Below, piece by piece: positions 2,371 to 42,114 of a stretch of DNA of 64,000 nucleotides (the first letter of the stretch is position 1; each line of letters opens with the position of its first letter). Below the pieces are notes generated by a model. The model was given only the letters and a program-made list of their open reading frames with translations, was not told the origin of the DNA and searched no databases. A program made the position numbers and the translations under genes. Source of the DNA: Candidatus Obscuribacter phosphatis (lineage in GTDB: Bacteria; Cyanobacteriota; Vampirovibrionia; Obscuribacterales; Obscuribacteraceae); the NCBI GenBank assembly GCA_001899315.1, contig MOYA01000004.1:118477-182476 (forward strand), in the 5' to 3' direction.

Positions 2371-3291
2371 TTAGCTCAGCAGTTCTTTCAGTTCATTAAA
2401 GACAGCCTGGGGAGAGATGCCGTAAAGACAACGCTCCTTCTCATCTTCGAGGGCACAGGTCAAAGGCTCCCAGAGTTGCCAGACCGGATAAGCCAACTTC
2501 TCATTGGGACTGTCGGCAAATTCTCGCTCTAGGCAAACAGCTGGGCAAACTGGGCCGACAAGCGAGCGCACATGCTTGTAGGGACGCATAAACATGTTGT
2601 TATAGCGAAAAATAGAGACTGTAGGCACTCCTTGATGCACAGACAAATGCATCAAACCGGTGTCAACAGCAACCACTGCTTTGGCGCTGCTGATTAAGTC
2701 TAGGGCGTCGCCAATGCCGGGGGTCGGCTCGTGGGGAAGACCCGCTTCTATGACATTAGCCACAATTTGGCAGCGCTCCGGTTCGCCTATGACAAGCACC
2801 GGTATTCCTTGCTCTTCAAGCAGCTGAGCCAAGGTTAGCCAATGCTTTTCAGGCCAGCATTTGAAGTGTCCAGCCGAGCCGGGAATAAAAATCACAGTCT
2901 GGCTCAAATCTTGACGCTTGTGAAAAGAGAGCGGCTGCAAACTAAAGTCGCAGTCAATTTGAAAGTCACGACAGATACCCTTCAAGACATCGAGTATTTT
3001 GTAGCCTGGATAAAGATCATTGAACTCTTTCGAACCCCAGATCGATGAAGACTGCAGGGGATGATCTCTAAAGTTGAAATAGCGGTCACCGGCCTTTAGT
3101 TCTTCCGGCTTAAACTCTGACTCTTTGATGCTGCCTGCCAACCCCTCTATCTTGTCAGAGAGACCATACTGAGCCGGCGAGCGCATTATCAGATAGGTTT
3201 CGTGACCGCTCTTGATGAGGGCATGCAAAATTGGAATCGTGACGATTAGATCGCCAAGACCATTTGAGACTGGAGCGAGATAATATGCCAA
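2371..3291 (-). CDS. Glycosyltransferase family 9 (heptosyltransferase-like)
   Basis: This is a GT-B glycosyltransferase of the heptosyltransferase (GT9) family, which transfers sugars to lipopolysaccharide core or similar glycans at the inner face of the cytoplasmic membrane. The N-terminal GLGDLIVTIP motif (residues 11-20) is the acceptor-side signature. The C-terminal nucleotide-sugar half shows FIPGSAGHFKCWPEKHW (135-151) and the diagnostic AVDTGLMHL (208-216). Length (306) is slightly short for the family. Its presence supports a glycolipid outer membrane. It lies 18 bases after the small exported gene that follows dnaN, so it is probably in that transcript. Confidence 0.85.
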   Translation of the reverse strand: MAYYLAPVSNGLGDLIVTIPILHALIKSGHETYLIMRSPAQYGLSDKIEGLAGSIKESEFKPEELKAGDRYFNFRDHPLQSSSIWGSKEFNDLYPGYKILDVLKGICRDFQIDCDFSLQPLSFHKRQDLSQTVIFIPGSAGHFKCWPEKHWLTLAQLLEEQGIPVLVIGEPERCQIVANVIEAGLPHEPTPGIGDALDLISSAKAVVAVDTGLMHLSVHQGVPTVSIFRYNNMFMRPYKHVRSLVGPVCPAVCLEREFADSPNEKLAYPVWQLWEPLTCALEDEKERCLYGISPQAVFNELKELLS

Positions 3292-3309
3292 TTTTCCTCT
3301 TTCTCTAAA

Positions 3310-3798
3310 TCAAGGACTATCAGCCTGCAAAACATCCAGTCCAGCTGCTATTCGCCTAGCCAGCTTTTCAACTGTGATAGTTTCACTGGCATAAGGCTTG
3401 CGGTAGACGACCTTGCTCTTGTTAGTAATTAGCTTATCCATTAAATGACTGGCTGCCACCGGATCTACTTGGCGCATCAAAAGAAAAAGATAGATTTTAC
3501 CTGCGCTTGTGGCATTGGTGAAGCGGGCTTTAATAACCGCTGCATTGACCTGAGCCGGTGAAGCATTCTTGAGCCGCTTAAACGCCAGCCAAAGCTCACC
3601 GGCAGTGGGTTTGCCCTGCGAGTAATAATAGACCGAAGATGCTTTACCCAGACTGTTTAGGTCGGAGAGGTTATCGGCTAAAGCTGCTCCAGCCGTAAAA
3701 GAGAGAAGCAAAAGAATGGAACAAGAGATGAGAGCAGCAGTGATTATAACTTTTGAAATACGGCTTGGCAGCTCAAAGACAGATAGCGGAAAGCGCAC
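3310..3798 (-). CDS. Small exported or membrane-anchored protein of unknown function after dnaN
   Basis: The 162-residue product starts with a positively charged segment and one hydrophobic stretch (about residues 16-42, ending AGAALA), read as a signal peptide or an N-terminal anchor. The rest is helical and polar, with no cysteines and no motif I recognise. The start lies 3 bases after the dnaN stop, so translation is probably coupled to dnaN. A GT9 gene follows at once. The spacing supports a real gene; the function is not known. Confidence 0.7.
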   Translation of the reverse strand: MRFPLSVFELPSRISKVIITAALISCSILLLLSFTAGAALADNLSDLNSLGKASSVYYYSQGKPTAGELWLAFKRLKNASPAQVNAAVIKARFTNATSAGKIYLFLLMRQVDPVAASHLMDKLITNKSKVVYRKPYASETITVEKLARRIAAGLDVLQADSP

Positions 3799-3801
3799 AG
3801 C

Positions 3802-4998
3802 CTATTTTGCCTGTACAGGCATGAGCAGGTATTTGTAGTTCTCGTCACCGATGCCCTTGATGATCAGAGGCTTGAGCGGACCGGTCATTTCCAGCTTGAC
3901 TTCATCTACACCCAGTCGTTGCAAAACATCAGTCAAATAGCGCACGTTGACGGCGACATCGATGGTTTCGCCTTCCAGTCCGATTGAAACTTCTTCCTGA
4001 GCACGTCCAACGTCAGGTGTATTGGCTGAAATCTGTACCATATCAGCTTCAAAGTGCAGCTTGATCAAGTGAGTACGGTCATCAGACATAACCGCCACAC
4101 GTTCGATCGCTCCCACTACTTCATCACGTTTGAAACTCGCCAAATGGCTGTAGTCTTTGGGAAAGAGTGTCTGGTATTGGGGATATTCGCCGGAGATGAG
4201 GCGGGTGGAAAGGAAGTGGCTCTCGGTCTCAAAAGTAATCTGACCATTAACCACAGCCAGTCTCACATCTTTGCCGTCTTGGCTGTCGAGAACTTTGACA
4301 ATTTCGGTGCAAGACTTGGCAGGAATAATTGCTTTCAAGCTGACTGGTTTTTCAAGAGTGGCTGTAGCAGACTTGGTTTCGCCTTCTACTTCCATGGCAG
4401 CATCGCTTTCTTCGACGGCGCGAGCGGCTGGGACGGCTACATTCAATTTTTCAAAGCGGTGAGCAAGACGGGAACCATCTGTGGCTGTACATTCGAAGTT
4501 GCCATTATCGATGACCAGATAAACCCCGCCTAAGATGCTGCTGGTGTCGAAAGCGGCGGCGGCAAAAGCTGTTTGCACAATACTCTTTCTAAGCACATCG
4601 GAAGGCATCAAGACGCCTTCGCGCGAACGACTTTCGGCTGTCTTGGGGAAATCATCAGCGGGTAGACCAGTGATGCTGAACTTAGAACGTTTGCAGGTAA
4701 CCGAGGTTTCGAAGGTGTCTTTGTTTACTTGAAAAGAAACCAAGTCACTCGGCAGCTTGGAGACGATCTCGAGCAACTTCTTACCGGGCAAAGTGATTGA
4801 ACCTGGTGTATAGACAACCCCGGTGGCCTTGGTTTCGATTGTCAAATCAAGATCGGTACCGTGGAATTTAACTGTGGTTTCGTCAAGACTCTCAATCAAG
4901 ACATTGCTGAGAATCGGCTGCACGACTCTGGTTGCAAGAGCGCTGGTCACATCTTTAAGGGCTTTCACCAGGACATCTTTTTGAACTGCAAAGTGCAT
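3802..4998 (-). CDS. dnaN: DNA polymerase III sliding clamp (beta subunit)
   Basis: The protein is the ring-shaped processivity clamp that tethers the replicative polymerase to DNA. It begins MHFAVQKDVLVKALKDVTSAL, with the typical RVVQPILSNVLIE first strand, has the central RLISGEYPQY signature, and ends in LMPVQAK, matching the usual C-terminal LMP(V/M)R. It has 398 residues against about 370-380 for most clamps. The excess is an acidic, Ser/Thr/Glu-rich insertion around residues 195-215 in the second domain, which reads as a surface loop. It lies downstream of dnaA on the same strand, separated by the oriC candidate, which is the ancestral bacterial order. Confidence 0.97.
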   Translation of the reverse strand: MHFAVQKDVLVKALKDVTSALATRVVQPILSNVLIESLDETTVKFHGTDLDLTIETKATGVVYTPGSITLPGKKLLEIVSKLPSDLVSFQVNKDTFETSVTCKRSKFSITGLPADDFPKTAESRSREGVLMPSDVLRKSIVQTAFAAAAFDTSSILGGVYLVIDNGNFECTATDGSRLAHRFEKLNVAVPAARAVEESDAAMEVEGETKSATATLEKPVSLKAIIPAKSCTEIVKVLDSQDGKDVRLAVVNGQITFETESHFLSTRLISGEYPQYQTLFPKDYSHLASFKRDEVVGAIERVAVMSDDRTHLIKLHFEADMVQISANTPDVGRAQEEVSIGLEGETIDVAVNVRYLTDVLQRLGVDEVKLEMTGPLKPLIIKGIGDENYKYLLMPVQAK

Positions 4999-5391
4999 TT
5001 GTTGAAACCTCGGGAATTATTTGCTTAACGATCCAGTTGTATATATAAAGGAACGACTTCCGATGTGTTGTGCTTAGTGCCCTGGAAATCTCCATAAAGA
5101 TTACCGTCTGCGGGGAATATTTTCAACTTCTCTCTAGTGTGTTTTTGGCAACCTGAGCCATCTTTAGCATTTCTACTCTTGTTAGTTCAATAAATTTAGT
5201 TATATAGAAGTAGGAGGGGAAGCCAATTTTTGTAGATAAGCCTTGAAACTTAAACCCTGTCCGAAGATCCCCTGTAGAAAACTTGTCTGTGCTTTGTTGA
5301 TAAAGAAAAGTCGTATATACGCCAAGTGGTGGGGATTGCACAGAGGGCTTACAACAAGCGGACAACTTTTGCACAAGTTTTCTACAGGCAG
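4999..5391. other. oriC: Candidate chromosomal replication origin (oriC) between dnaA and dnaN
   Basis: The gap between dnaA and dnaN holds a cluster of sequences matching the relaxed DnaA-box form TTWTNNACA within 160 bases. These are TTATCTACA (minus strand, 5231-5239), TTTTCTACA (minus, 5273-5281), TTATCAACA (minus, 5295-5303), TTTTGCACA (plus, 5367-5375) and TTTTCTACA (plus, 5378-5386). Two of them lie in a perfect 16-base inverted repeat (5271-5286 against 5373-5388). An AT-rich stretch (about 5180-5208) next to the cluster could be the unwinding element. Box identity is judged by eye; a GC-skew switch over the whole chromosome would confirm it. Confidence 0.6.
5271..5388. repeat. Perfect 16-bp inverted repeat carrying DnaA-box-like sequences
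   Basis: CCTGTAGAAAACTTGT at 5271-5286 is the exact reverse complement of the 16 bases at 5373-5388. Each arm contains TTTTCTACA, one base from the cyanobacterial-type box TTTTCCACA. The right arm touches the end of dnaA. The arms are 86 bases apart, too far for a simple hairpin, so a paired protein-binding site is more likely. Confidence 0.7.
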
Positions 5392-6867
5392 TTAATCTGC
5401 CAACTGGCTTGAGATTTGCTTTACCGACTGCGCTAGATTGGGGTCTTTGGGCATGGCCTCTTTTATTCTAGAGTGCGCATATAGAGCAGATGTATGTTTG
5501 CGGTTACCGAAGGCTTCACCAATTCGTGGGAAGCTCATCTTGATAAGCTCGTGGGCCAAATACATAGCAATATGCCTTGGCAAGGTGAGGTCCTGACTAC
5601 GTTTTGCCGAGCGCAGTTCGCTGGGTTCGACTCGATAGTGCGAAGCCACTGTTTGAATGATGCGATCGATGGTTATGGTGGCTCTAGGCTTGTTATTTGG
5701 CACTGTGGGCTGCAACATACCGGCCAGCGATTGAACGGTCAATGCTTCGCCTGTGAGGCTGCTGTATGCGTTGGCCCTGATTAGAGCACCTTCCAACTCT
5801 CTTATGTTTGTGGTGAATACCGAGGCGATGTACTCAAGAGCATCGTCATCAATACGCATATTCTCGGCTTCGCATTTCTTGCGCAAAATGGCAACCCTGG
5901 TCTCTAAGTCAGGTGCTTGAATATCGGCTATCAGCCCCCATTCAAAGCGACTGCGTAGACGTTCTTCTAGGTGGGAAATGGCTTTGGGTGGACGATCAGA
6001 CGAGAGTACTATTTGTCTGCCTGAATCTCGCAGGGCGTTGAAAGTATGGAAGAACTCTTCCTGTGTACTTTCTTTGCCTTGCAAGAACTGAATATCATCA
6101 ACCAACAAAACGTCTACCTGCCGGTAACGTTTGCGGAAGTCGGACATGCGGTCGTCTCTAATCGAGTTGATGAGCTCGTTGGTGAATTTTTCGCAACTTA
6201 TATATCTGATTGAGGCATTGGGAGAATGTCGCAAAATCTCGTGGCCTATGGCATGCATGATATGTGTCTTACCAAGACCAACCCCTCCATATATAAATAG
6301 AGGGTTATAGGCTTGTCCGGGTCTTTGCGCCACTGCTAAAGCCGCCGAATGGGTGAAGCGGTTGTGGGCGCCTACGACAAAGGTTTCAAATAGATATTTG
6401 GCATTGAGATTGCTGCGGGCTGTCAACACCGAATCGGGTAAACGAGCGCTATTGGCGGGATTAGACTGTCCAAGCGACTGGAAGGGGTTTTGACTGGGAT
6501 AGCTTGGTTGAGCAATGGCAGGCTCTGCTTCTGTTCCCTCGGAACTGATACTGGCTATGGTGGCAGTATAATTGTCTGCTTTCACGCTCGGATCGACGAT
6601 TACCTTGATCGAGACCGGGCTGCCAATAACTTGTCCGATTGCTTCAGACACAGCAGCAGCGTAGTTATTAGCCACCATGCCGCGCATAAATTCGTTGCTT
6701 ACGGCAATAGAAGCCTGCCCCTGAGCCAATTCCACCAGTTGAGCCGGCCTAATCCAGCTCTCAAAGCTAGGCTGGCTAAGCTTTTTCTCCAGAATGACTC
6801 TGGCCTCGCTCCAGACATCTTTATTTGATTTGAGGAGGCGCACGTCTTCTGTATTTGAGTTTGTCAT
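5392..6867 (-). CDS. dnaA: Chromosomal replication initiator protein DnaA
   Basis: DnaA binds DnaA boxes, melts the origin and loads the replicative helicase. All four domains are visible. Domain I has VWSEARVILEKKLSQPSFESW near the N-terminus, then a Ser/Pro-rich linker. The AAA+ domain has Walker A GGVGLGKTH at about 194-202 and Walker B LLVDD at about 254-258. Domain IV, binding DNA, has the RHIAMYLAHELI helix and a DnaA signature that reads HTSALYAH instead of the common HTTVLHA. The frame opens 18 codons earlier (6921), but the ATG at 6867 fits the usual domain I start and has AGGAC upstream. Length is then 491. It is divergent from rpmH. Confidence 0.96.
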   Translation of the reverse strand: MTNSNTEDVRLLKSNKDVWSEARVILEKKLSQPSFESWIRPAQLVELAQGQASIAVSNEFMRGMVANNYAAAVSEAIGQVIGSPVSIKVIVDPSVKADNYTATIASISSEGTEAEPAIAQPSYPSQNPFQSLGQSNPANSARLPDSVLTARSNLNAKYLFETFVVGAHNRFTHSAALAVAQRPGQAYNPLFIYGGVGLGKTHIMHAIGHEILRHSPNASIRYISCEKFTNELINSIRDDRMSDFRKRYRQVDVLLVDDIQFLQGKESTQEEFFHTFNALRDSGRQIVLSSDRPPKAISHLEERLRSRFEWGLIADIQAPDLETRVAILRKKCEAENMRIDDDALEYIASVFTTNIRELEGALIRANAYSSLTGEALTVQSLAGMLQPTVPNNKPRATITIDRIIQTVASHYRVEPSELRSAKRSQDLTLPRHIAMYLAHELIKMSFPRIGEAFGNRKHTSALYAHSRIKEAMPKDPNLAQSVKQISSQLAD

Positions 6868-29544: not shown

Positions 29545-32001
29545 ATGACAGAAACAAGTTCTGCCTCTATTGATGAGCAGGCGGCTAAGACCGAAAGCTA
29601 TGGGCAAGGCCCGGATAATACCGCTGCTTTATTGGTGATTTTAGTACTGTTTTTTGTTTCGGGCTTTTGTGCTCTGGTTTATCAAGTTGTCTGGCAGCGC
29701 ATGCTAGGTCTTTTTACCGGTGCAGAGACTGTTTCTGTTAGTTTAATTACAGCTGCCTGTATGCTTGGGATGGGTGTCGGTAGTCTCGCCGGTGGTATCA
29801 TCTGCGACAAGATGCGGCGCCGCTCTTCTCTAATATTAGCCTTTGCCGCTTCAGAGCTTCTGATAGGTCTTTTCGGCGCCGGCAGCAAGATCTTGCTCTA
29901 TGATTTTCTCTATTGTCAGGTACCCTTTTTGGGCGACTCGCGTCTGCTCGCCTTTGTTGTCGTTTTTGCCGCGCTTTGCTTGCCCACTTTCTTTATGGGC
30001 ATGACCCTGCCGGTCATTTCAAGAGCCTTTATCACCATTATCGCCAGAGCGCCAATAAGCATCGCTTGGTTCTATGCCCTCAATACAATGGGTTCGGCGG
30101 TCGGTTCATTGGTGGCGGCTCTATTTATGATACGCAACTTGGGCTATGAACCGACTCTTTATCTAAGTGCCGGGCTCAATTTGATTTGTGCTCTGGGTGC
30201 CCTGATAGTGGGCAGTCGGGCTCGCCGTCTCGCCAGCGATCAGGTCGCGGCAGAAAGCTCGCCAGAGTCTAAGTCTAAGCCAGAGCCAGAGCCAGAGTCT
30301 AAGTCTATGTCTGAACCTAAAGCTGATTCTGTTCAGTCTAGTCGAGAACAGTTGGATAAGACAGGCGAGAGCCAGACCCTCTCTCAATCAATGACCGGGG
30401 CGCGTCTTGCTGCCTGGGCAGCCTTTAGTGCTCTATCAGGCTTTCTAGCGCTTGGGCTAGAGATTTTGTGGTTCAGACTAATCTCGGTGATGCTCAAAGC
30501 CAATTCGATGACCTATGGCTGGCTCTTATTTCTTTATTTGTTCGGGCTTGCCGCCGGTACATTGCTTGGTTCAAAATTGCTTGCTCGGCGCAAGAATCCT
30601 GCCTCCGACTTTTTCTTGTTTCAAGCCCTTTGCAGTATTTATGCCGTCACCGCCCTCGCTTTCTTTGTCAAGAGTCTTGGTTTTGATTCAGTCTTTAAAT
30701 CACTCTTCGAATTTTTCGGCCAGTACGATCCAATCGACTTCAGCGCTAAAATCCCACCGCTCAAATTGCTTCTAGAGCTTTATGTCTTTCTGCCTGCTGC
30801 CTTGATTGTGCCGCCGGTGACACTGATGGGCATGAGTTTTGTCAGTTTGCAGAAAGTTTTGCAGACCGACCTCAAATTTGTCGGCAGGCGCATTAGTTTG
30901 GTGCAGACCGCCAATATTATCGGTTCGACCCTGGGTTCGCTCTTTGTCGGCTTGCTTGCTTTGAGATATTTGAAGACATCGGGCACCCTGCGATTGTTTG
31001 TATTGGGCGGCAGTATCTTTTTGTTTATGTGGCTCTATGGTCTTTTGCAAGAAAAGTTGAAGAAAAAGGCTCTCTCGGCTGGTTTATCTATTGTTTTGAC
31101 TGCCGCCGCCGCCCTTGGGCTCTTTTATTATGTGCCCAATGCCAAAGAGATTTGGCATAAATTGCACGGTTATTGCAGCCCGGGGCAGTTTACTATGAGT
31201 GAAGATCACAGTGGTTTAGCCGCCACCGGCCCGGTAAGCTGGAGCCCTGAGCATACTTTTGTTTATGTCAATGGCCAAGGTCATAGCGAATTGCCCTACG
31301 GGCGGTATCATTCACAGATTGGTCTTTTGCCTGTCTTTTTGCACCCGCAGCCGATTGATGTGGCTGTAATCGGCTTGGGCAGCGGCAATACTCTTTATGC
31401 CAGTGGTGCCAATCAACTGACAAAAAATATAACCTGTTTTGAAATTGTCGAGCCCACTTATGACTGTCTGAAACAGCTGAACAAGATGAAGCCGTATCAA
31501 CCCCTCAGTCGCTTGCTTAGCGATAAGCGCATTAGGATGGTCTTTGCCGACGGCCGAAAAGGTTTGCAAAGAGAGAATCGCAAATACGATGTCATCGAGC
31601 AGGACCCGCTGCGTCCCTATGACTCGGGCTCGGGAATGCTCTATTCGAAAGAGCATTTTGAGAATCTCAAACGTTATCTCAAACCAGGCGGCATAGTGGC
31701 GGTCTGGTGTCCAACTCAGCGCACAATGCGCACTGTCGCCAATTCTTTTCCCTATGTGCTCTCTTTTGGGGCAACGATGGTGGGCAGTATGACCCCTTTT
31801 GCAGCAGATAAAGCCCAGGTTTTGCAAAGATACGATGCTAACCGCATTGCCAGTTATTGCGAAGAAACCGGTGCCGACTGTCGTGCTCTCTTGAGCGAGA
31901 TACTAGATCAAGATAATGGGCGTGTCTCCACTGCTAAGTTTCCAGCGGTCAAACTCAATCACGATCTTTATCCGCGCGATGAGTATTGGGTTAACCAATA
32001 G
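29545..32001 (+). CDS. Fused multi-pass membrane protein with C-terminal spermidine synthase-like domain
   Basis: The 818-residue protein has an N-terminal transporter-like membrane domain of about 12 helices (FVSGFCALVYQVVWQRMLGL is the family hallmark near residues 38-57), interrupted by a Ser/Glu/Lys/Pro-rich loop (about 230-275). The C-terminal 260 residues form an aminopropyltransferase-like fold: VAVIGLGSGNTLYASG binds the nucleotide part, VFADGRKGL and YDVIEQDPLRPYDSGSGMLYS follow. The usual acidic D-x-S/D motif reads EQDP. Such fusions are common in bacteria, but their reaction is mostly untested. A polyamine link with the agmatinase gene is possible but only inferred. Confidence 0.85.
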   Translation: MTETSSASIDEQAAKTESYGQGPDNTAALLVILVLFFVSGFCALVYQVVWQRMLGLFTGAETVSVSLITAACMLGMGVGSLAGGIICDKMRRRSSLILAFAASELLIGLFGAGSKILLYDFLYCQVPFLGDSRLLAFVVVFAALCLPTFFMGMTLPVISRAFITIIARAPISIAWFYALNTMGSAVGSLVAALFMIRNLGYEPTLYLSAGLNLICALGALIVGSRARRLASDQVAAESSPESKSKPEPEPESKSMSEPKADSVQSSREQLDKTGESQTLSQSMTGARLAAWAAFSALSGFLALGLEILWFRLISVMLKANSMTYGWLLFLYLFGLAAGTLLGSKLLARRKNPASDFFLFQALCSIYAVTALAFFVKSLGFDSVFKSLFEFFGQYDPIDFSAKIPPLKLLLELYVFLPAALIVPPVTLMGMSFVSLQKVLQTDLKFVGRRISLVQTANIIGSTLGSLFVGLLALRYLKTSGTLRLFVLGGSIFLFMWLYGLLQEKLKKKALSAGLSIVLTAAAALGLFYYVPNAKEIWHKLHGYCSPGQFTMSEDHSGLAATGPVSWSPEHTFVYVNGQGHSELPYGRYHSQIGLLPVFLHPQPIDVAVIGLGSGNTLYASGANQLTKNITCFEIVEPTYDCLKQLNKMKPYQPLSRLLSDKRIRMVFADGRKGLQRENRKYDVIEQDPLRPYDSGSGMLYSKEHFENLKRYLKPGGIVAVWCPTQRTMRTVANSFPYVLSFGATMVGSMTPFAADKAQVLQRYDANRIASYCEETGADCRALLSEILDQDNGRVSTAKFPAVKLNHDLYPRDEYWVNQ

Positions 32002-32029: not shown

Positions 32030-32599
32030 TTATTTTTGTTTCTTGAGATAAAGCTGGAGCATGGTCTTGAGGATGGTTCTTTGTTGACTCCATCTCAGGT
32101 CTCTACCAGAGAGGGCTCTTTCCATCACCATGCCTGACATAAAGACGCCGATGAAATCACAGATGTCTTCGTCGTTTATAAACAGTCTTTGCTTGAAAAT
32201 CTCAAGCAGGGCGGGCGAGCAGAAGGTATCTCGCATCTTTGTCAAGAGCACTTCGTCGCCTGACCTGTATACATCTATTTGTATAAGGGTCCACTTCATA
32301 AAGTATTCTTCGTTCTCTTGCATCCAGTCGAGCAAGAGGTCGAGCCCTTGTTCAAAGTTCTTAGACTGAGCAGCGAACTCTAAGAAATTGGTGGCCTTAC
32401 TGTTCAAGAAATGGTCGAGCAGAGCCTCAAATATAGCTTGCTTGCTTTCAAAGTAGTGATAAATGGTGCCGGTTGAGACCCCAATTGCCTTAGATAGATC
32501 GCGCATGGTGAGGGCGCTATAGCCTTTTTCAGCCATGGCGTCAAAGCTCTTGGTCAAGAGCTCGCGGCGATATTCTTCGTGGTCGACAATCTTTGGCAT
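32030..32599 (-). CDS. TetR/AcrR-family regulator of the RND efflux operon
   Basis: The repressor has a standard TetR helix-turn-helix, EEYRRELLTKSFDAMAEKGYSALTMRDLSKAIGVSTGTIYHYFESKQAIFEALL, and a helical ligand domain of about 130 residues. The ATG at 32599 gives 188 residues; a GTG at 32635 would add 12. It is divergent from the adaptor gene of the efflux operon, with an imperfect palindrome between them, so it most likely represses that operon until a toxic ligand binds. Confidence 0.9.
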   Translation of the reverse strand: MPKIVDHEEYRRELLTKSFDAMAEKGYSALTMRDLSKAIGVSTGTIYHYFESKQAIFEALLDHFLNSKATNFLEFAAQSKNFEQGLDLLLDWMQENEEYFMKWTLIQIDVYRSGDEVLLTKMRDTFCSPALLEIFKQRLFINDEDICDFIGVFMSGMVMERALSGRDLRWSQQRTILKTMLQLYLKKQK

Positions 32600-32654
32600 C
32601 AAATCTAATGTAACAGATGGCTGGACTTTTTTCACACAACGGTTTTATAATAAA

Positions 32655-32752: not shown

Positions 32753-34171
32753 ATGTTAGAAACACAAGAAAAAGAGAAAACGACCTGCTCAGTTGAGCGC
32801 TTCATAGGCTTCGGTAAACCTGAATCTAAACCAGAATCTAAAAGGGTTTTCTTGAAGAATAAGAGGCTCTGGCTGGGTCTGGCCTTTGGCTCGGCTCTAG
32901 CATTGGTCATCGGGATGGGTAGTTTTGTAGCTGGTCAGGGAAAGAGCGAAAAGCCCGTCAAAAGGGCAATTACGGTTGAAACTGCCCGTGTCGACAAGCA
33001 TTCGCTGGCCCGAGAGATTAAGGCCACCGGCACGGTAATGGCCCGAGACCCCCTAGAAATCGGCTCTCAGGCCAGCGGACTGAAAATCGATCTTCTCTTG
33101 GCTGAAGAAGGCGACTGGGTGGAAAAGGGTCAGATTTTAGCCCGGCTCAATACCGATATCTTGAATGCCCAGCTTAAGGAAGAGCAGGCAATTTTAGATA
33201 ATGCCGCCGCCAGCTACCAAAAGTCTCTGCAGCCTAACCGGCAAGAAGAGATAAACATGCAGCGAGCTTCGCTCGACTCTACCGCCGCCGATATTGCCCA
33301 GAAAGAAGCAGCCATAGCCAGAGCTTCGGCTGAATACAACAATGCACTTTCTATCTCTGAGAGGTATTCGTCTCTCTACAGGGAAGGCGGTGCTACTGCC
33401 CAGGAAGCTGAGCAAAAACGGACCGATGTGCAGTCTTATAAGGCTGCTCTGGAAACCGCCAAGGAAGGCTTGCGGCAGGCGAAGCTAAACCGAGAAAGAG
33501 AAAGGCTGAGACTAGATGAAATGCAAACCGGTGGTCGGCGCGAAGACATTAGCATTGCTGCAAGCACAGTGGCTCAGCACCGGGCTCGCATCGAGCAGCT
33601 GCAAGCCCAGATAGCCCAAGCTATAGTGAGGGCGCCCGCTGCCGGTCTCATTGTAGAGAGAAGCGCTCATCTTGGCGAAATTTATAACGGCGGCATAATT
33701 TATAAGATGATTCGCGACGGCGAACTGGAATTGCAGGCTAAACTGCCCCAGCAAGATTTAGACCAAATCAGACTAGGACAGGAAGTGCTGGTGAGCGATG
33801 GCAAACGCACATTGACCGGTAAGGTCTGGTTGCTTGCCCCCAGTGTCGATTCGACTTCGCGACTTGGCAAAATTAGAATTGCCTTGCCCACTGACAAAGA
33901 CCTCAAAGCCGGTATGTTTGTCACCACCACAATTGCCACTGTCAGCCGCGATAGCCTGGCTGTGCCTGAGTCTGCCCTGGCTTATGAAAACGATAAAGCA
34001 TCGGTCTTGGTGATCGAAAACGGTATCGCCCACAAAAGACGCGTGAATACTGGCTTGCGCCATGATCGCTATGTAGAAATTTTAGACGGCTTGCAAGCCG
34101 GCGAAACAATAGTGAAAGAAGGAACGGTCTTTGTTGCCGACGGCGACTTGGTTAGAAGCGCCACACTCTAA
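32753..34171 (+). CDS. RND efflux periplasmic adaptor (HlyD/AcrA family)
   Basis: This membrane-fusion protein bridges the inner-membrane pump and outer-membrane channel. One N-terminal membrane anchor (about residues 42-62) follows a polar start. The lipoyl/biotinyl half-motif GLKIDLLLAEEGDWVEKGQILARLNTD precedes a long alpha-helical hairpin (about 140-280) with many Gln/Glu/Arg residues. The return half reads IVRAPAAGLIVERSAHLGEI, and beta-barrel and membrane-proximal domains close the protein. The hairpin is long, as needed to reach a TolC-type channel. The gene is 22 bases before the pump gene. Confidence 0.92.
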   Translation: MLETQEKEKTTCSVERFIGFGKPESKPESKRVFLKNKRLWLGLAFGSALALVIGMGSFVAGQGKSEKPVKRAITVETARVDKHSLAREIKATGTVMARDPLEIGSQASGLKIDLLLAEEGDWVEKGQILARLNTDILNAQLKEEQAILDNAAASYQKSLQPNRQEEINMQRASLDSTAADIAQKEAAIARASAEYNNALSISERYSSLYREGGATAQEAEQKRTDVQSYKAALETAKEGLRQAKLNRERERLRLDEMQTGGRREDISIAASTVAQHRARIEQLQAQIAQAIVRAPAAGLIVERSAHLGEIYNGGIIYKMIRDGELELQAKLPQQDLDQIRLGQEVLVSDGKRTLTGKVWLLAPSVDSTSRLGKIRIALPTDKDLKAGMFVTTTIATVSRDSLAVPESALAYENDKASVLVIENGIAHKRRVNTGLRHDRYVEILDGLQAGETIVKEGTVFVADGDLVRSATL

Positions 34172-34193: not shown

Positions 34194-37100
34194 ATGTTCA
34201 ATATATCTGCCTGGACAATCAGACAGCCTATACCCTCAATTTTGCTTTTCATCATGCTCACAATCGCTGGCTTGGTTTGTTTCACCCAAATAGAGATGGA
34301 TGAATTGCCGAACATCGATATGCCCACAGTCAGTATAAGTATTGCTCAAAGCGGTGCTGCACCATCTGAATTAGAAGTGCAGGTGACCCGCAAAGTTGAA
34401 GACGCACTTTCAGGCTTATCCAACATCAAGCATATAACTTCCAACATTTCTGAAGGCTCTTCCACCACTACGGTCGAGTTTGAGCTGGGCACCAATACCG
34501 ACCGCGCCGTCAACGATGTGCGCGACCGAGTCAATCGCATCAGGGCATCTTTGCCTGCCGAAATCACCGAACCAGTAATTCAAAGACTTGATTTTGCCGG
34601 TGAGGCTTTTGCCACCTATACAGTGTCGTCAGATAGCATGAGTGATACCGAGCTTAGCTGGCTTATCGATAACGATATCAGCCGGGTGCTTTTGTCGGTG
34701 CCTGGGGTGGGGCAGGTGCAGCGATCTGGTGGTGTTGCCCGCGAAGTAAGAATCAATCTAGACCCGGCCAAACTTGAGGCAGTTGGTCTTACAGCCGAAA
34801 GTGTCAATAACCAGGTGCGCTTTCGCAATATCAATATGCCGGGTGGCAGAGGACGCTTGGCTGGTGCTGAGCAGACCATCAGAACGGTGGGCAGTGCACA
34901 TGACATAGACGAATTGCGCAATCTCAAAATAGCCCTGCGCAACGGTGAGTTCGCTCCCCTTTCCAGCCTCGGTACGGTGGAAGATTCTCATGCCGAAGCC
35001 AGACAAATGGCTTATTTGGATGGTAAGCCGGTTGTTGCCTTTTCACTGAAGCGCAGTACCGGCAGAGGTATGGCCCAGGTGGCCAAAATGGTCGACCGCA
35101 AACTAGATGAGCTGAAAGCTACTTTGCCGCCCTCTGTAAAGATAGAGAAAGTACGCACCAGTGCAGTCTATGTGCAAGAGTCTTTTGACGCCACAATCGA
35201 ATCGTTGGTATTGGGGGCGGTGCTGGCTGTGGTGATTATCTGGGTCTTTCTCAAAGACTGGCGCTCTGCCGGTATTTCGGCTCTGGCCATGCCTCTCAGC
35301 ATGATACCTACTTTCATTTTTATAAAGCTCTTGGGCTATACCCTAAACGACATGTCACTTTTAGGTCTAGCTTTGGTTATTGGTATCTTGGTCGACGACG
35401 CCATTGTCGAAGTAGAAAATATCGTCAGACACATTCATATGGGTAAGACACCCTATCAGGCAGCCCTTGATGCCGCCGACGAAATTGGTCTAGCGGTTGT
35501 CGCTACAACTTTTTCGATTATCGCTGTGTTTGTGCCCTTGGCGCTTATCTCGGGCATACCCGGGCAGTTCTTTCGGCAGTTCGGCTTTACAGTCGCCATA
35601 GCCGTATTTATGTCTTTGGTAGTGGCGCGTCTTATGACCCCGATGATGGCTGCCTTTTGGCTAAAGAACCCGCCGGCTGAAAGTGGTCGTTCCAAACTGG
35701 TCGAACTCTATGATATCTCTCTTGATTGGGCACTCAAGCATCGTAAAACCACTTTGGCTGCCGCTTTTGGTTTCTTTCTCTTGAGTTTGGGCTTGACCGC
35801 ACTCATACCAATGAACTTAATTGGCTCGGTTGACCGCGGCGAGACTATTTTGTCGGTAGAATTACCGCCGGGTAAAGATATCGAAGGCACAGCCGCAACA
35901 GTGCTAAAGATTAGTCAGCTGGTGCAGTCCAATAAAAATGTCGCACGTGTGTTTTCGGCCGTCGGCACACCCGGTGAGGCTTCTTCTATAGGCAGCGGTG
36001 GCGAGAGCGGCAAGGTCAATAAAGCCAATCTCTATATCAGTCTCAAACATCGCGGCGAAAGAAAAGATTCGCAGCAAGTGGTGGAACAGCAAATCAGAGA
36101 AGCGCTGCAGAGTGTGCCTTCTATTCGCACTAAGTTTGTCAACACCAGTGGTCCGGGCGGTCGAGTAGATTTTTGTCTGGTCGGCTCTAACCCGGCAGAG
36201 CTTGATGCCACCGCCCAAGAGCTAGCCAGACAGATGCGAGACATAAAGGGTCTGGCCGACGTGCAAAGTAATGCATCTTTGCAGGCGCCCCAGCTTGTCA
36301 TAAAACCAAACTGTGAGTTGGCGGCAGAACACGGAGTGACCGTGCAGTCTATAGCCCGCACCGCCCTGGTTGCCACCATAGGTGATGCTGATATCGCCCT
36401 TGGTCGCTTTGATCTGCCCGACCGTCAAATTTATGTACGTGTACAGATTGACCCGCTCTTTAAGAAAGATCTGGAATGGATTCGTAATCTCAAAGTCAGT
36501 TCGATAAATGGCGCTCTCATACCCCTTTCAGCCCTGGCATCGATCGATGTCACCAGCGGACCATCTGAGATTACCCGCTATGACAAGCAAAGACAGGTAC
36601 TGATCAGTGCTCAGCTTGTAGACAAAATGCCTCTGGGTGAGGCTATATCAGCCATACGCGCCCTGCCTGCCTTTAAGAATAAAGCGGCTTCGGTGGTGGA
36701 GTCGCCATCGGGAGACGTAGAGCTGCAGCAAGATGTCTTCAAGGGCTTTGCCGTAGCCATTGTGGCTGCTGTTTTGCTTATGTACTGCGTTCTGGTCTTA
36801 CTCTTCAACGATTTTGTGCATCCCTTCACCATTATGACTTCGCTGCCACTATCTATTGGCGGAGCCATTGCCGCGCTCATGATTTCTGGGCAACCTTTGG
36901 GGCTCTATGCCCTGATTGGCATAGTGATGCTTATGGGGCTGGTGGCTAAGAATGCCATTTTGTTGGTCGAATATTGCTTGATGTCGATGCATCAGGGTAT
37001 GAGTGTCGACCAGGCAATTCGCACTGCCGGTGATGCACGTATGCGGCCTATTTTGATGACCACCCTGGCTATGGTGGCCGGTATGGTGCCCATAGCCATG

Positions 37101-38918
37101 GGCATCGGTGCCGGTTCGGAAGTACGTTCGCCTATGGCAGTGGCTGTGATTGGCGGTCTGGCCACATCGTCGCTTTTGACCCTAATTGTGGTGCCGGTTA
37201 TCTTCACTATTTTCAACGAATGGAAAGAAAAGCTTAGCGTAGCTGCTGGGCGGCAAGAGAAAAGCAAGCAGAGTCTAGTGGAGAAAGTTAGTCTTAATCT
37301 CTTGCTTGTCGGAGTGCTTGCTCTATCTGCTGCCCTCCAGCCGGCTTTTGCCCAAGACCTAGGTTTAAATAGCCCTGCTAAGGGTGATCAAGATGTCGAA
37401 ACCCTTTTGGAATCTGAGTATCGCAAAGCAGAAGAGATATCGGATACTCTTTTGCAGCCTCTGCCTGAAACCGCTCAAGAAGGCATCAGTATCAAATATC
37501 CCGATGCTACTTTTCTTTTGCCTATCGGTCAACAAAAACTGCCGCCCATTAAGCTGGAAGCTAGTTATAACCGCGGCATAACCTTGGCTGAAGCCTTGCA
37601 GCAAGCTTTGAGCAATAACTTGCCCATAAAAATTTCGAACGATAACTACAAAACAAGAAGAGCTCTCTTTGCTGGTTCTCTTGGTGGCTTCTTACCCGAC
37701 TTGAGCATGACCTATCGCTATCAGAATGTCTATCAGGGCGGCGACAAACTGTTCAATTTGCGCACCGGCAATACATCGCTTACCTGGGCTTATTTTCAGG
37801 GCGGCAAAGTGGTAAGCACGGCGCTCAACACTTATTACAATATGAAAGCCTCTCGCAACGACTATAGCAAGCAGGTCAACGACGTACTTTTAGATGTGTA
37901 CCGTAAGTATAACGAGGTGCTCTACAATCAAGCGCTTTTGCAAGTGCGCATCAAGTCGCTTGAAACATCGAGGGCAAATCTCAAGCTAACCAAACAGCAG
38001 TTTAGAGCCGGTACAGGTACTAAATTTGCCGTCATGCAGTCTGAATCGCAGTTGGCATCAGATGCTCAAAACTTGGTCAACCAGCAAGTCGCCACCCGTA
38101 AAGCCGCCATTGCTCTAGCTGTGGTTTTGAATAGCGACATCATGGACAACCTTTTGCCAAAAGAAGAAACCTTGGGCAAGACTTTTCTTATTGATCCCGC
38201 CGCTAAACCAGTCGAGCTTGTGGCGAGAGCGCGCAGCCTCAGACCCGAGCTGAAAGCTCTAGAAGCCCAACGCCGAGCAGCCAAGGCCGCCATCGCTCAA
38301 GCGGGTAGCGCCCTTTTGCCCACCGCCCAGCTTTTTGTCTCACCCAGCAATACCAGGCTCTCGGGCGCAAGCAGTCTGGCCGGTCTGTCGTCTGGGCTGA
38401 CAGGCGGCGCCGCTTCTTCTGCTGGTGTCAATTTATCTACCACCGGCACAGGTACAAGCAGTGTCAATGTTGGTGGTGTTTTAGGCAGCAGCGTCACTCT
38501 CGGCACATCGGTAACCTGGAATCTTTCTGGACTAGGCGTAAGTGATATGGCCAATATGGAAGCCAATAGAATTATTGCCAGACGTATTCAAAATGAATAC
38601 AACCAAGAACTGCTCAAGATAACTCAGGAAGTGCATAACTCTTTTCTTGATATGCAAACCGCCGAAGAACAGATAAATATCACCGAGGTTAATGTCAATG
38701 CTTCAAGAGAAGGGCTGAGGCTAGCATCGAAAAGACTATCTTTGGGTAACGGCACCAATTTAGAACTTATCGAGGCACAGCGCTCTTATGTCAATGCTCT
38801 GGCAGCCCAGATTAGAGCCTTTGTCGAATTTCGCAATGCCCAGGCTCAAGTTTTGCGCGACACCGGGACTATATCAATAGCTGCCTTAACCGGTGCAAGT
38901 GCCAACAAATTGCAGTAA
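34194..38918 (+). CDS. RND efflux pump fused to a TolC-family outer-membrane channel
   Basis: One uninterrupted frame of 1574 codons encodes two proteins of a tripartite pump. Residues 1 to about 1015 are a complete HAE1-like RND permease: FNISAWTIRQPIPSILLF at the start, the TM4 motif GILVDDAIVEVENIVRHI with two proton-relay Asp, and GLVAKNAILLVEYCLM in the second half. After EKLSVAAGRQEKSKQSL comes a signal-peptide-like stretch (LNLLLVGVLALSAALQPAFA, about 1033-1052). A TolC-type channel of about 520 residues follows, with two helical OEP repeats (RGITLAEALQQALSNNLPIK; QRSYVNALAAQIRAFVEFRNAQ). Cleavage after AFAQ would release the channel, or the two may remain joined. The adaptor gene precedes it. 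Confidence 0.9.
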   Translation: MFNISAWTIRQPIPSILLFIMLTIAGLVCFTQIEMDELPNIDMPTVSISIAQSGAAPSELEVQVTRKVEDALSGLSNIKHITSNISEGSSTTTVEFELGTNTDRAVNDVRDRVNRIRASLPAEITEPVIQRLDFAGEAFATYTVSSDSMSDTELSWLIDNDISRVLLSVPGVGQVQRSGGVAREVRINLDPAKLEAVGLTAESVNNQVRFRNINMPGGRGRLAGAEQTIRTVGSAHDIDELRNLKIALRNGEFAPLSSLGTVEDSHAEARQMAYLDGKPVVAFSLKRSTGRGMAQVAKMVDRKLDELKATLPPSVKIEKVRTSAVYVQESFDATIESLVLGAVLAVVIIWVFLKDWRSAGISALAMPLSMIPTFIFIKLLGYTLNDMSLLGLALVIGILVDDAIVEVENIVRHIHMGKTPYQAALDAADEIGLAVVATTFSIIAVFVPLALISGIPGQFFRQFGFTVAIAVFMSLVVARLMTPMMAAFWLKNPPAESGRSKLVELYDISLDWALKHRKTTLAAAFGFFLLSLGLTALIPMNLIGSVDRGETILSVELPPGKDIEGTAATVLKISQLVQSNKNVARVFSAVGTPGEASSIGSGGESGKVNKANLYISLKHRGERKDSQQVVEQQIREALQSVPSIRTKFVNTSGPGGRVDFCLVGSNPAELDATAQELARQMRDIKGLADVQSNASLQAPQLVIKPNCELAAEHGVTVQSIARTALVATIGDADIALGRFDLPDRQIYVRVQIDPLFKKDLEWIRNLKVSSINGALIPLSALASIDVTSGPSEITRYDKQRQVLISAQLVDKMPLGEAISAIRALPAFKNKAASVVESPSGDVELQQDVFKGFAVAIVAAVLLMYCVLVLLFNDFVHPFTIMTSLPLSIGGAIAALMISGQPLGLYALIGIVMLMGLVAKNAILLVEYCLMSMHQGMSVDQAIRTAGDARMRPILMTTLAMVAGMVPIAMGIGAGSEVRSPMAVAVIGGLATSSLLTLIVVPVIFTIFNEWKEKLSVAAGRQEKSKQSLVEKVSLNLLLVGVLALSAALQPAFAQDLGLNSPAKGDQDVETLLESEYRKAEEISDTLLQPLPETAQEGISIKYPDATFLLPIGQQKLPPIKLEASYNRGITLAEALQQALSNNLPIKISNDNYKTRRALFAGSLGGFLPDLSMTYRYQNVYQGGDKLFNLRTGNTSLTWAYFQGGKVVSTALNTYYNMKASRNDYSKQVNDVLLDVYRKYNEVLYNQALLQVRIKSLETSRANLKLTKQQFRAGTGTKFAVMQSESQLASDAQNLVNQQVATRKAAIALAVVLNSDIMDNLLPKEETLGKTFLIDPAAKPVELVARARSLRPELKALEAQRRAAKAAIAQAGSALLPTAQLFVSPSNTRLSGASSLAGLSSGLTGGAASSAGVNLSTTGTGTSSVNVGGVLGSSVTLGTSVTWNLSGLGVSDMANMEANRIIARRIQNEYNQELLKITQEVHNSFLDMQTAEEQINITEVNVNASREGLRLASKRLSLGNGTNLELIEAQRSYVNALAAQIRAFVEFRNAQAQVLRDTGTISIAALTGASANKLQ

Positions 38919-39129: not shown

Positions 39130-42114
39130 CTATTTCTTGTCGTCGTGAAACTGTTCGCTTTCGGTTGAGCCGCTCAAAGCCGTGGTTGACGACTCTCCGC
39201 CTGTTATGCTGAGCAGCAGTTTGTCGAACCAGCCGGCGCCGACTTCGGCTTGGTGTCTAACAGCCGAGTAACCTTGGTCGGCAAGGGCAAACTCTTCTTC
39301 TTGCAGCCGTACATAGGCGGGCATTCCTTCCGCTGCGTACTCTGTGCTGAGTTTGTAGGCGCTCAGGTTGACCGCATGCCAGCCGGCTAGAGTGATGAAT
39401 TGAAATTTGTAGCCCATTTTGCCAAGTTCATTATTGAAGCGGGCGATTGTGGCATCGTCCAGGTTCTTCTTCCAGTTGAAGGACGGCGAACAGTTGTAAG
39501 CCAAGAGCTTGCCCGGATATTTTGCATGTATCGCTTCGGCGAAGCGGCGGGCTTCTTCTAGGTCGGGACGCGATGACTCAAACCAGACCAGGTCGGCATA
39601 AGGTGCATAAGCCAGACCGCGGGCAATCACTGCATCGAGACCGCCCTTGACGCGGTAAAAGCCCTCGCTGGTGCGTTCTGCGCCGGGCATGATGAACGGT
39701 CTGTCTCTCTCGTCGATGTCTGAGGTGAGAAGGGTGGCGTCGAGGGCGTCGGTGCGGGCAACCAGCAAGGTAGGCACATTCATGATATCGGCTGCCATAC
39801 GCGCCGCTGCCAAAGTGCGAATAAACTGCGAGGTCGGCACCAGTACCTTGCCACCCATATGACCGCATTTCTTTTCGGCAGCCAGTTGGTCTTCAAAGTG
39901 CACCGCCGCGGCGCCGGCTTCGATCATCTGTTTCATTAGTTCGAAAGCCTGAAGTGGACCACCGAAACCGGCTTCGGCATCGGCGACAATGGGCAAATAG
40001 CAATCGGTCGAACCCTGACCAGTCAGGTTTAAGATTTGGTCGTGGCGCATAAGGGCGCTATTAAGGCGGCGCACCAGTGCTGGTGCACTATTGGAAGGAT
40101 AGAGGCTCTGGTCGGGGAAAGTTTGTCCGGCAAGATTAGCATCAGCTGCCACTTGCCAGCCGCTCAGATAAATAGCTTGCAGACCGGCTTTAGCCATCTG
40201 CACCGCTTGAGCGCCGGTCATAGCCCCGAGGGCAATTACTTGGGGCAGGCTCTGCATGCGTTGCCAGAGCAGTTCGCAACCATGGCGGGCCAGGTTGCAG
40301 TCAGGCAAAATAGAAGGACGCAGCTTTATTACATCTTGGGCGCTATAGGGACGTGTGACGCCTTGCCAGCGCTCCTGCACTTTCCAGGCGGCTTCAAGCA
40401 AGGCTGCCTCTGAGATGATGTCTTCCTGACCTTGTGATTCTTGCTGTTTTTCTTTCTCGGTGTTCATAATGTTTTGACTCTTGATATTGTTGGTTTCGTT
40501 GTCGAGCAAGTAAGCATAGGCTTCTGTGGTGATGAATTCGACAAAGCCCTGACGCAGCACCACTTTCTCTAAGATGGAGCGGGCTTGCTCTAGATAGTGT
40601 GCTTGCTCTTTTAGTCTTTGGTTTTGCAATAGACGATTGAATTCTTCTCTGAGATATTTGCGAAAGAGCTTACGGTTGAATCTCTCGCCGCTCGTCATCA
40701 AAGCTGAGTGCTTTAGCCATTGCCAGAGTTGTGCTCTAGAGATTTCGGCGGTGGCGGCATCTTCCATAAGGTTGTGAATAGCCACGGCACCGCGCCCTGC
40801 CAACCAAGCACTTAGATAAAGAAGGCTCACTTCGATATTGAGACGAGCACCGCTTTCGCTCACTTTTAGTGAGACTTTGTCCATATAGCAGAGTTCCTCC
40901 GGCTTTACCCTTTCGGTGTCCGGCAAGACTCGCTCTTTCTGATTGCTGCGCTCGCCCAGTACTTGGCTGAATTCTTGCCTGGCGATGGCTATTAAGTCGG
41001 GATGCGCCACCCAGGTGCCGTCAAAACCTTGGTTTGCTTCACGTCTTTTGTCTTGCGCCACTTGCTTGAAAGCCAAGTCATTGACTGCGGCATCGTGGCG
41101 GTTAGGTATAAAGGCCGACATGCCGCCGATGGCGTGAACACCATGACGGTGCGCTATATCGACCAGCCGGCGGCAATAGGCCTGCATGAAAGAGACTTCC
41201 ATAGAAAGTTCACTGCGGTCAGGTAAGACCTTTGAAGGGTGCTGCCTAAACCTTTTGATCAGGCTAAAGATATAATCCCAGCGTCCGGCATTGAGCCCAG
41301 CGGCATGGTCTTTCAGTTCAAAGAGAATAGCTTCCATTTCATAAGAGGCCACGATTGTTTCAATCAGTACAGTGGCTCTAATTGTGCCGCGCTCGATAGC
41401 AAGCAGGTCTTGCGCCAAGTTGAAGACATCGTTCCAGACTCTGGCTTCGAGGTGGGTTTCAAGCTTGGGCAAATAGAAATAAGGACGGCTGCCTCGGCTG
41501 ATTAGCTCTTTGGCGTTGTGAAAGAAGAAAAGGCCAAAATCAAAGAGTGAAGCAGAAATAGGCTTGCCGTCAATTAATATATGGGCTTCGTCTAGATGCC
41601 AGCCGCGTGGACGTACCATCAGCACTGTTTTTGCATCGGCTTTGAGAGAATAGCTTTTGCCCTCTTTTTCTGTGAAGTTGAGACGGCGGCGCACGGCGTT
41701 ATAAAGATTGGCTTGACCACTGAGCATATTGGCAAAGCTTGGCGAACTGCTGTCTTCAAAGTCGGCCATAAAGACATCGGCCGAGCTGTTGAGAGCATTG
41801 ATAATGGTTTTAGCGTCTACCGGTCCGGTAATCTCGACCTGGCGCTTTTCAATCTCGGCAGGGCAAGGCGCAGCTTTCCAGTCTTCCTGACCGATAGCCA
41901 GGCTAGAACAAGCAAAGTAAAGAGCCTTGCGATTATCTATATAGCGCTGTTTTCGGCTTCTATCGAGCAAGCATTGCTGTCTGCGGCTTTCGAAAGAGTC
42001 TGAGAGAGTGACGAGAAAGTTGATAGCTTCATCGGTAAGAATATGAGCAAATTGACTTTCAAGATTGAGAACGGCTGGAGCTGGAAACTTGATTTCTACG
42101 CGATCGGCTTTCAT
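39130..42114 (-). CDS. Bifunctional malate synthase-isocitrate lyase (glyoxylate cycle enzyme)
   Basis: A single 994-residue chain carries both glyoxylate-shunt enzymes. Residues 1 to about 535 are malate synthase [33 protein letters not shown] and [14 protein letters not shown], the family signature, then [12 protein letters not shown]. Residues about 560 to 994 are isocitrate lyase: [48 protein letters not shown], the catalytic [14 protein letters not shown] and [18 protein letters not shown]. The linker (about 535-560) contains MNTEKEKQQ, a possible internal start at 40468 with only a weak ribosome-binding site. The product would let the cell grow on acetate or fatty acids. A 3-base-clean frame argues against a sequencing join. 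Confidence 0.93.

Follow-up and report, generated by a model that had tools for sequence, protein, structure and literature searches.

A single reading frame joining an HAE-type RND pump to a TolC-type channel in Vampirovibrionia, with an internal signal-like segment and a likely polyprotein fate

The window (the whole 64,000-nt stretch of DNA that was analysed) carries a genuine pump–channel fusion frame, in which a complete RND permease of the HAE type is followed by a TolC/OEP-type channel, and this architecture is confirmed. The product is best read, at a probability of roughly 0.7, as an efflux polyprotein, in which an HAE-type pump and a channel precursor with its own signal would be cut after A1053 to form a tripartite pump with both parts at 1:1. 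Judging from the sequence features at the junction, signal peptidase I most likely cleaves inside the fusion chain and so gives pump and channel in equal numbers. The open-frame scan encountered no internal stop over the 1574 codons, and PF00873 and two copies of PF02321 fall within this one frame, which bears out the unbroken run from permease to channel reported in the preliminary description. Under an independent-bases model, the chance of 560 extra open codons at the base composition of the window is about 1e-12. The adaptor gene is the first of the operon, 22 nt upstream of the fusion gene, and the features of the region are collected in Table 1; the host assembly comprises 5.49 Mb in 8 contigs. 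On the other side of the fusion, the adjoining frame at 39130–42114 (minus strand, 994 aa) encodes a bifunctional glyoxylate-shunt enzyme, composed of malate synthase A (residues 25–536) and isocitrate lyase (residues 569–990), both exceeding curated NCBIfam cut-offs, and the 818-aa product of 29545–32001 (plus strand) combines a spermidine-synthase domain with an MFS-like membrane part.

Table 1. Positions in the window of the fusion gene, its parts and its neighbours.
Feature	Position	Strand	Details
Divergent TetR-family regulator	32030..32635	-	PF00440 E 3.5e-16
Periplasmic adaptor (MFP)	32753..34171	+	TIGR01730 RND_mfp 169.5 bits, cut-off 94.9
RND-OEP fusion gene	34194..38918	+	single open frame, ATG to stop, 1574 aa
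RND permease domain, HAE-type, full length	34206..37214	+	residues 5-1007; PF00873 E 8.2e-242
Cytosolic RND tail and linker, lysine-rich	37215..37277	+	residues 1008-1028
Internal signal-peptide-like segment	37278..37352	+	residues 1029-1053; predicted cleavage AFA^Q
GTG codon of V1029	37278..37280	+	conserved in G002
Mature TolC/OEP-type channel	37353..38915	+	residues 1054-1574 (521 aa); predicted mature part

The match of the fusion to PF00873 (ACR_tran) scored 805.5 bits and covers profile positions 2–1020 of 1021. The best solved relative of the pump is MdtB, to whose DD pair D401 and D402 are aligned, and K919 was located by script within LVAKNAILLVEY; we take these three residues to be the Asp-Asp and Lys of the proton relay. 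The top NCBIfam models were NF033617 (738.4 bits), followed by NF000282 and the MdtB and MdtC models, and no subfamily cut-off was reached among the NCBIfam models; because NF033617 scored below its cut-off of 1250, the pump is described as HAE-like without a named subfamily. Membership of the CusA/CzcA heavy-metal RND pumps was rejected (TIGR00914, 414.7 against a cut-off of 701.45), and the general HAE models score well above this value, in agreement with the HAE-type pump proposed earlier. Past the point where the permease domain ends, 29 stand-alone pumps of the family have C-terminal tails of 34–62 residues. In the C-terminal third of the fusion, both PF02321 repeats (37584–38129 and 38214–38864) exceed the cut-off, which upholds the earlier reading of a full OEP channel, and weak matches to the OprN, OprM and MtrE chains were also observed. 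The predicted cut is separated from the first channel helix by 75 residues.

The C-terminus of RND permeases is cytosolic and the channel must be periplasmic, so that a signal or a membrane helix is needed at the junction. The hydrophobicity peak of the fusion is located there, at residues 1034–1052 (1.85 over 19 residues); the letters of residues 1034–1053, LNLLLVGVLALSAALQPAFA, agree with the preliminary description, and the internal signal-like peptide that it proposed was recovered as a hydrophobic segment ending AFA^Q, or AIA^Q in the second genome, G002. By a crude signal rule, used in place of a trained predictor, this segment sits inside the fusion chain and away from the precursor N-terminus, and since the same rule also fires on several RND helices of the fusion, the segment alone is no proof of cleavage. 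A hydrophobic signal or helix stands at the junction in 12/12 frames from Bacteroidota, in 2/2 frames from f7, another Vampirovibrionia family, and in 2/2 genomes carrying the present fusion. A signal kept at the junction is the rule in the RND–OEP fusions examined and topology demands it, so the surprise once expressed at a retained signal peptide is unsupported.

The same fused frame was observed in G002 (1572 aa), with 97% protein identity and 87% nucleotide identity, and there too the adaptor gene lies upstream and a TetR-family regulator adjoins the fusion (locus L088). By the NG86 method, dS between the two genomes is about 0.75 in both domains, and dN is 0.010 for the RND part, 0.015 for the OEP part and 0.39 for residues 1029–1053, where 14/25 positions (56%) are identical; one lysine, the small/aliphatic run, QPA, A-x-A and the +1 Gln (AFA^QD vs AIA^QD) are kept. 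On this comparison, the segment looks like a signal peptide that diverges under selection for its physics. An assembly or sequencing error might produce such a frame by removing a stop or shifting the frame between two neighbouring genes, and G002 is a metagenome assembly, as the window's own genome may also be; however, the same unbroken frame is present in both assemblies despite a 13% nucleotide difference, and their sole length difference is an in-frame gap of 6 nt. Because the divergent G002 retains an identical frame architecture, the indel artefact that the preliminary description had named as able to overturn the fusion is excluded, and an error of any such kind is considered exceedingly improbable.

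Channel homologues were detected in 50/50 genomes of the family, and among the matches listed only G000 and G002 have one in a frame above 1300 aa, with none in such a frame among those listed for the third congener, G001. In the pump tree, the sister of the fusion pump is the pump of G015 (99/100 support, long branch), where the order is adaptor, pump and channel, the GTG start of the channel overlaps the TGA stop of the pump as GTGA, and a signal-like segment follows directly behind this GTG; counted without gaps, the G015 pump ends 1–2 codons from the position of the fusion GTG 1029. The search for separate genes in relatives, suggested earlier, was thus successful, the nearest pump relative having unfused, overlapping pump and channel genes. 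From this arrangement, the fusion probably arose by stop loss in an overlapping pump gene upstream of a channel gene. The fused channel is not joined specifically to the G015 channel in the OEP tree, and because the latter is not its nearest relative, the stop-loss route stands as a model without a direct ancestor. Behind the G015 pump (locus L081) there are two consecutive channel genes, 4710–6464 and 2836–4737 (minus strand), which are sister to each other in the OEP tree. Gain of the fusion from a plasmid was rejected, as no channel match to the fusion was found on plasmids and none of the 5000 records listed has one place covering 80% of it.

The GTG at 37278 may be what is left of a start codon once used by the channel gene, and it bears on a second explanation, in which two products are made, the fusion and a channel initiated separately at this internal codon. 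Both genomes keep this codon, and it falls close to the point at which the G015 pump ends and the G015 channel starts with GTG, but the fusion has no in-frame ATG between residues 982 and 1171, its in-frame GTG and TTG codons standing at 1029, 1037, 1041, 1072, 1087 and 1109, and no clear purine-rich ribosome-binding site was seen at the right distance before GTG 37278 (agcagagtcta GTG; agcaagatctg GTG). Real starts in the window are also weak in ribosome sites; AGGAGG occurs 8 times in the whole window against 28.8 expected from shuffles, strong Shine-Dalgarno sites seem to be avoided in this genome, and because of this rarity a missing strong site says little. The upstream frame, by contrast, runs on without a stop, so ribosomes translating the pump would all make the fusion anyway. 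An independent internal start, which had been held out as another way to undo the fusion reading, is therefore not well supported, and separate initiation at the GTG is judged improbable.

At least 92 of the 289 genomes of the class have a channel match, in a scan where the best five candidates per genome were scored and the window's own fused channel is not among the matches listed, and a second fusion was observed in f7, in G048 (1559 aa) and G081 (1548 aa). The channels of these two form a supported pair (98/94) within a clade of the OEP tree that holds stand-alone channels, and pump and channel genes converge in 3/5 of the loci examined for f7 stand-alone orthologues; because of this clade and these convergent loci, the f7 fusion would be separate in origin. 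The f7 fusions retain the same kind of segment as is present at the N-terminus of the stand-alone orthologues (8/8), with a poorer site at the G048 junction (PMYS^EE).

Fusions were also observed on Bacteroidota plasmids. In the first loci examined there, the pump and channel genes are separate, several of them overlapping, and the fused frames turned up on whole-record scanning of ten plasmids, eight of them with one or more channels in frames of 1457–1513 aa and a ninth with one in a frame of 1181 aa. The resulting 12 fusion frames from 9 plasmids, some of them near-duplicates, can be aligned with E. coli CusA as far as its residue 1019–1043 of 1047. Their junction segment ends A^Q in 12/12 frames against 3/75 for the remaining hydrophobic segments in these sequences, the cleavage sites having been picked by eye where just one hydrophobic stretch separates the channel from the final helix of the pump, and the distance from the predicted cut to the first channel helix (H1-like motif) is 4–12 residues by manual count. 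Bochtler et al. (PMC5837995) report a Gln directly after the signal peptidase I site in a mean of 71% of Bacteroidetes substrates. Several Bacteroidota plasmids of different genera also harbor a conserved split RND pump, in which a CusA-like permease is annotated as two consecutive genes of about 425–460 and 630–650 aa and a TolC gene comes next, overlapping or adjacent (loci L109, L114, L115, L116, L117 and L119).

Cleavage, already raised in the preliminary description, is the best reading of the junction sequence, with A-x-A^Q kept while the segment around it diverges and with stand-alone channels looking comparable. A signal-like segment lies ahead of the channel domain in 32/33 stand-alone family frames, 17 of them ending AQ (e.g., ...WPAFAQ); L071 has no hydrophobic segment, and in L076 and L016 the segment picked may precede the true start. 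The segment might instead stay uncut as a 13th membrane helix, which its hydrophobic peak would fit, with the channel permanently tied to the pump across the periplasm; the 75 residues before the first channel helix could span up to about 260 Å, which is enough if they are nearly fully extended. In the cited part of one account of MexAB-OprM, the complex has OprM:MexA:MexB at 1:2:1, is about 320 Å long and leaves MexB without contact to OprM (PMC6447562), and in that of another the channel is 140 Å long with the H1 helix in the mid-barrel equatorial domain (PMC8277102). Against these dimensions the 4–12 residues of the Bacteroidota fusions (at most about 40 Å) would not let an uncut chain reach, so that cleavage appears close to required in them. 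The 75-residue stretch of the window protein is no longer than the leaders of stand-alone family channels, where the open frame before the channel match measures 76–200 residues, signal included (32 frames with a segment), and it thus gives no sign of adaptation to a tether; A-x-A^Q is moreover preserved in G002. The tether offered as an option in the earlier account is therefore unlikely in general, given the short Bacteroidota spacers, and survives for the window protein, given its 75 residues, as a possible but strained arrangement, which is considered unlikely.

With cleavage as the preferred reading, the 12-helix pump would insert with its C-terminus in the cytosol, and the internal segment would work as an N-in/C-out Sec signal, carrying the channel part to the periplasm, where signal peptidase I would cut after A1053. 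The mature 521-aa channel so released would trimerise in the outer membrane, and the adaptor encoded by the upstream gene would link it to the pump, completing a drug-type tripartite system in which pump and channel are produced 1:1, matching the need of the assembled complex. No publications on the processing of RND–channel fusions or of this protein were found in the literature covered, most of which lies outside subscription journals.

Sequence alone does not account for how tripartite pumps, often drawing on a TolC that is shared, come to have pump and channel in matched amounts. Where the pump's own chain includes a private channel, the 1:1 ratio is set by the gene itself, and cutting by signal peptidase I within the chain can be put to a direct test; from the A^Q at all Bacteroidota junctions read, a cut that leaves pyroglutamate at the new N-terminus is predicted. 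The RND–channel fusion architecture is already known, and what is new is the HAE-type example with an independent origin in Vampirovibrionia, along with the general, testable prediction that RND–channel fusions are polyproteins processed by signal peptidase. That such fusions form a recurrent polyprotein class of at least three origins (Bacteroidota metal pumps and two Vampirovibrionia lineages with HAE-type pumps), cut in place with each pump trimer supplying its own three channel chains where the complex is assembled, is proposed tentatively, as a view somewhat more apt to fail than to hold.

Several known systems resemble the window fusion to different degrees. The CusA/CzcA-type fusions on plasmids of Bacteroidota (Spirosoma, Haliscomenobacter and Hymenobacter) likewise have pump then channel in one frame with an A^Q junction, but they carry a CusA-like metal-efflux pump where an HAE-type pump is present here, have a very short spacer behind the signal and belong to another phylum, and we infer that they are independent in origin. 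The f7 fusions of G048 and G081 share the HAE-like pump with a channel, the junction signal and the adaptor gene upstream, whereas the G048 pump is just 32% identical to that of the window and the channel falls in another clade. The tripartite HAE pumps MdtABC and MexAB-OprM draw their RND, adaptor and channel from the same families as the window system, and their genes are separate, in contrast to the fused pump and channel here. A further parallel is FbcH, the cytochrome b-c1 precursor of Bradyrhizobium, in which a polytopic membrane protein is joined to an exported protein and an internal signal is cut by signal peptidase; its proteins are unrelated to those of the window fusion, and FbcH belongs to a respiratory complex.
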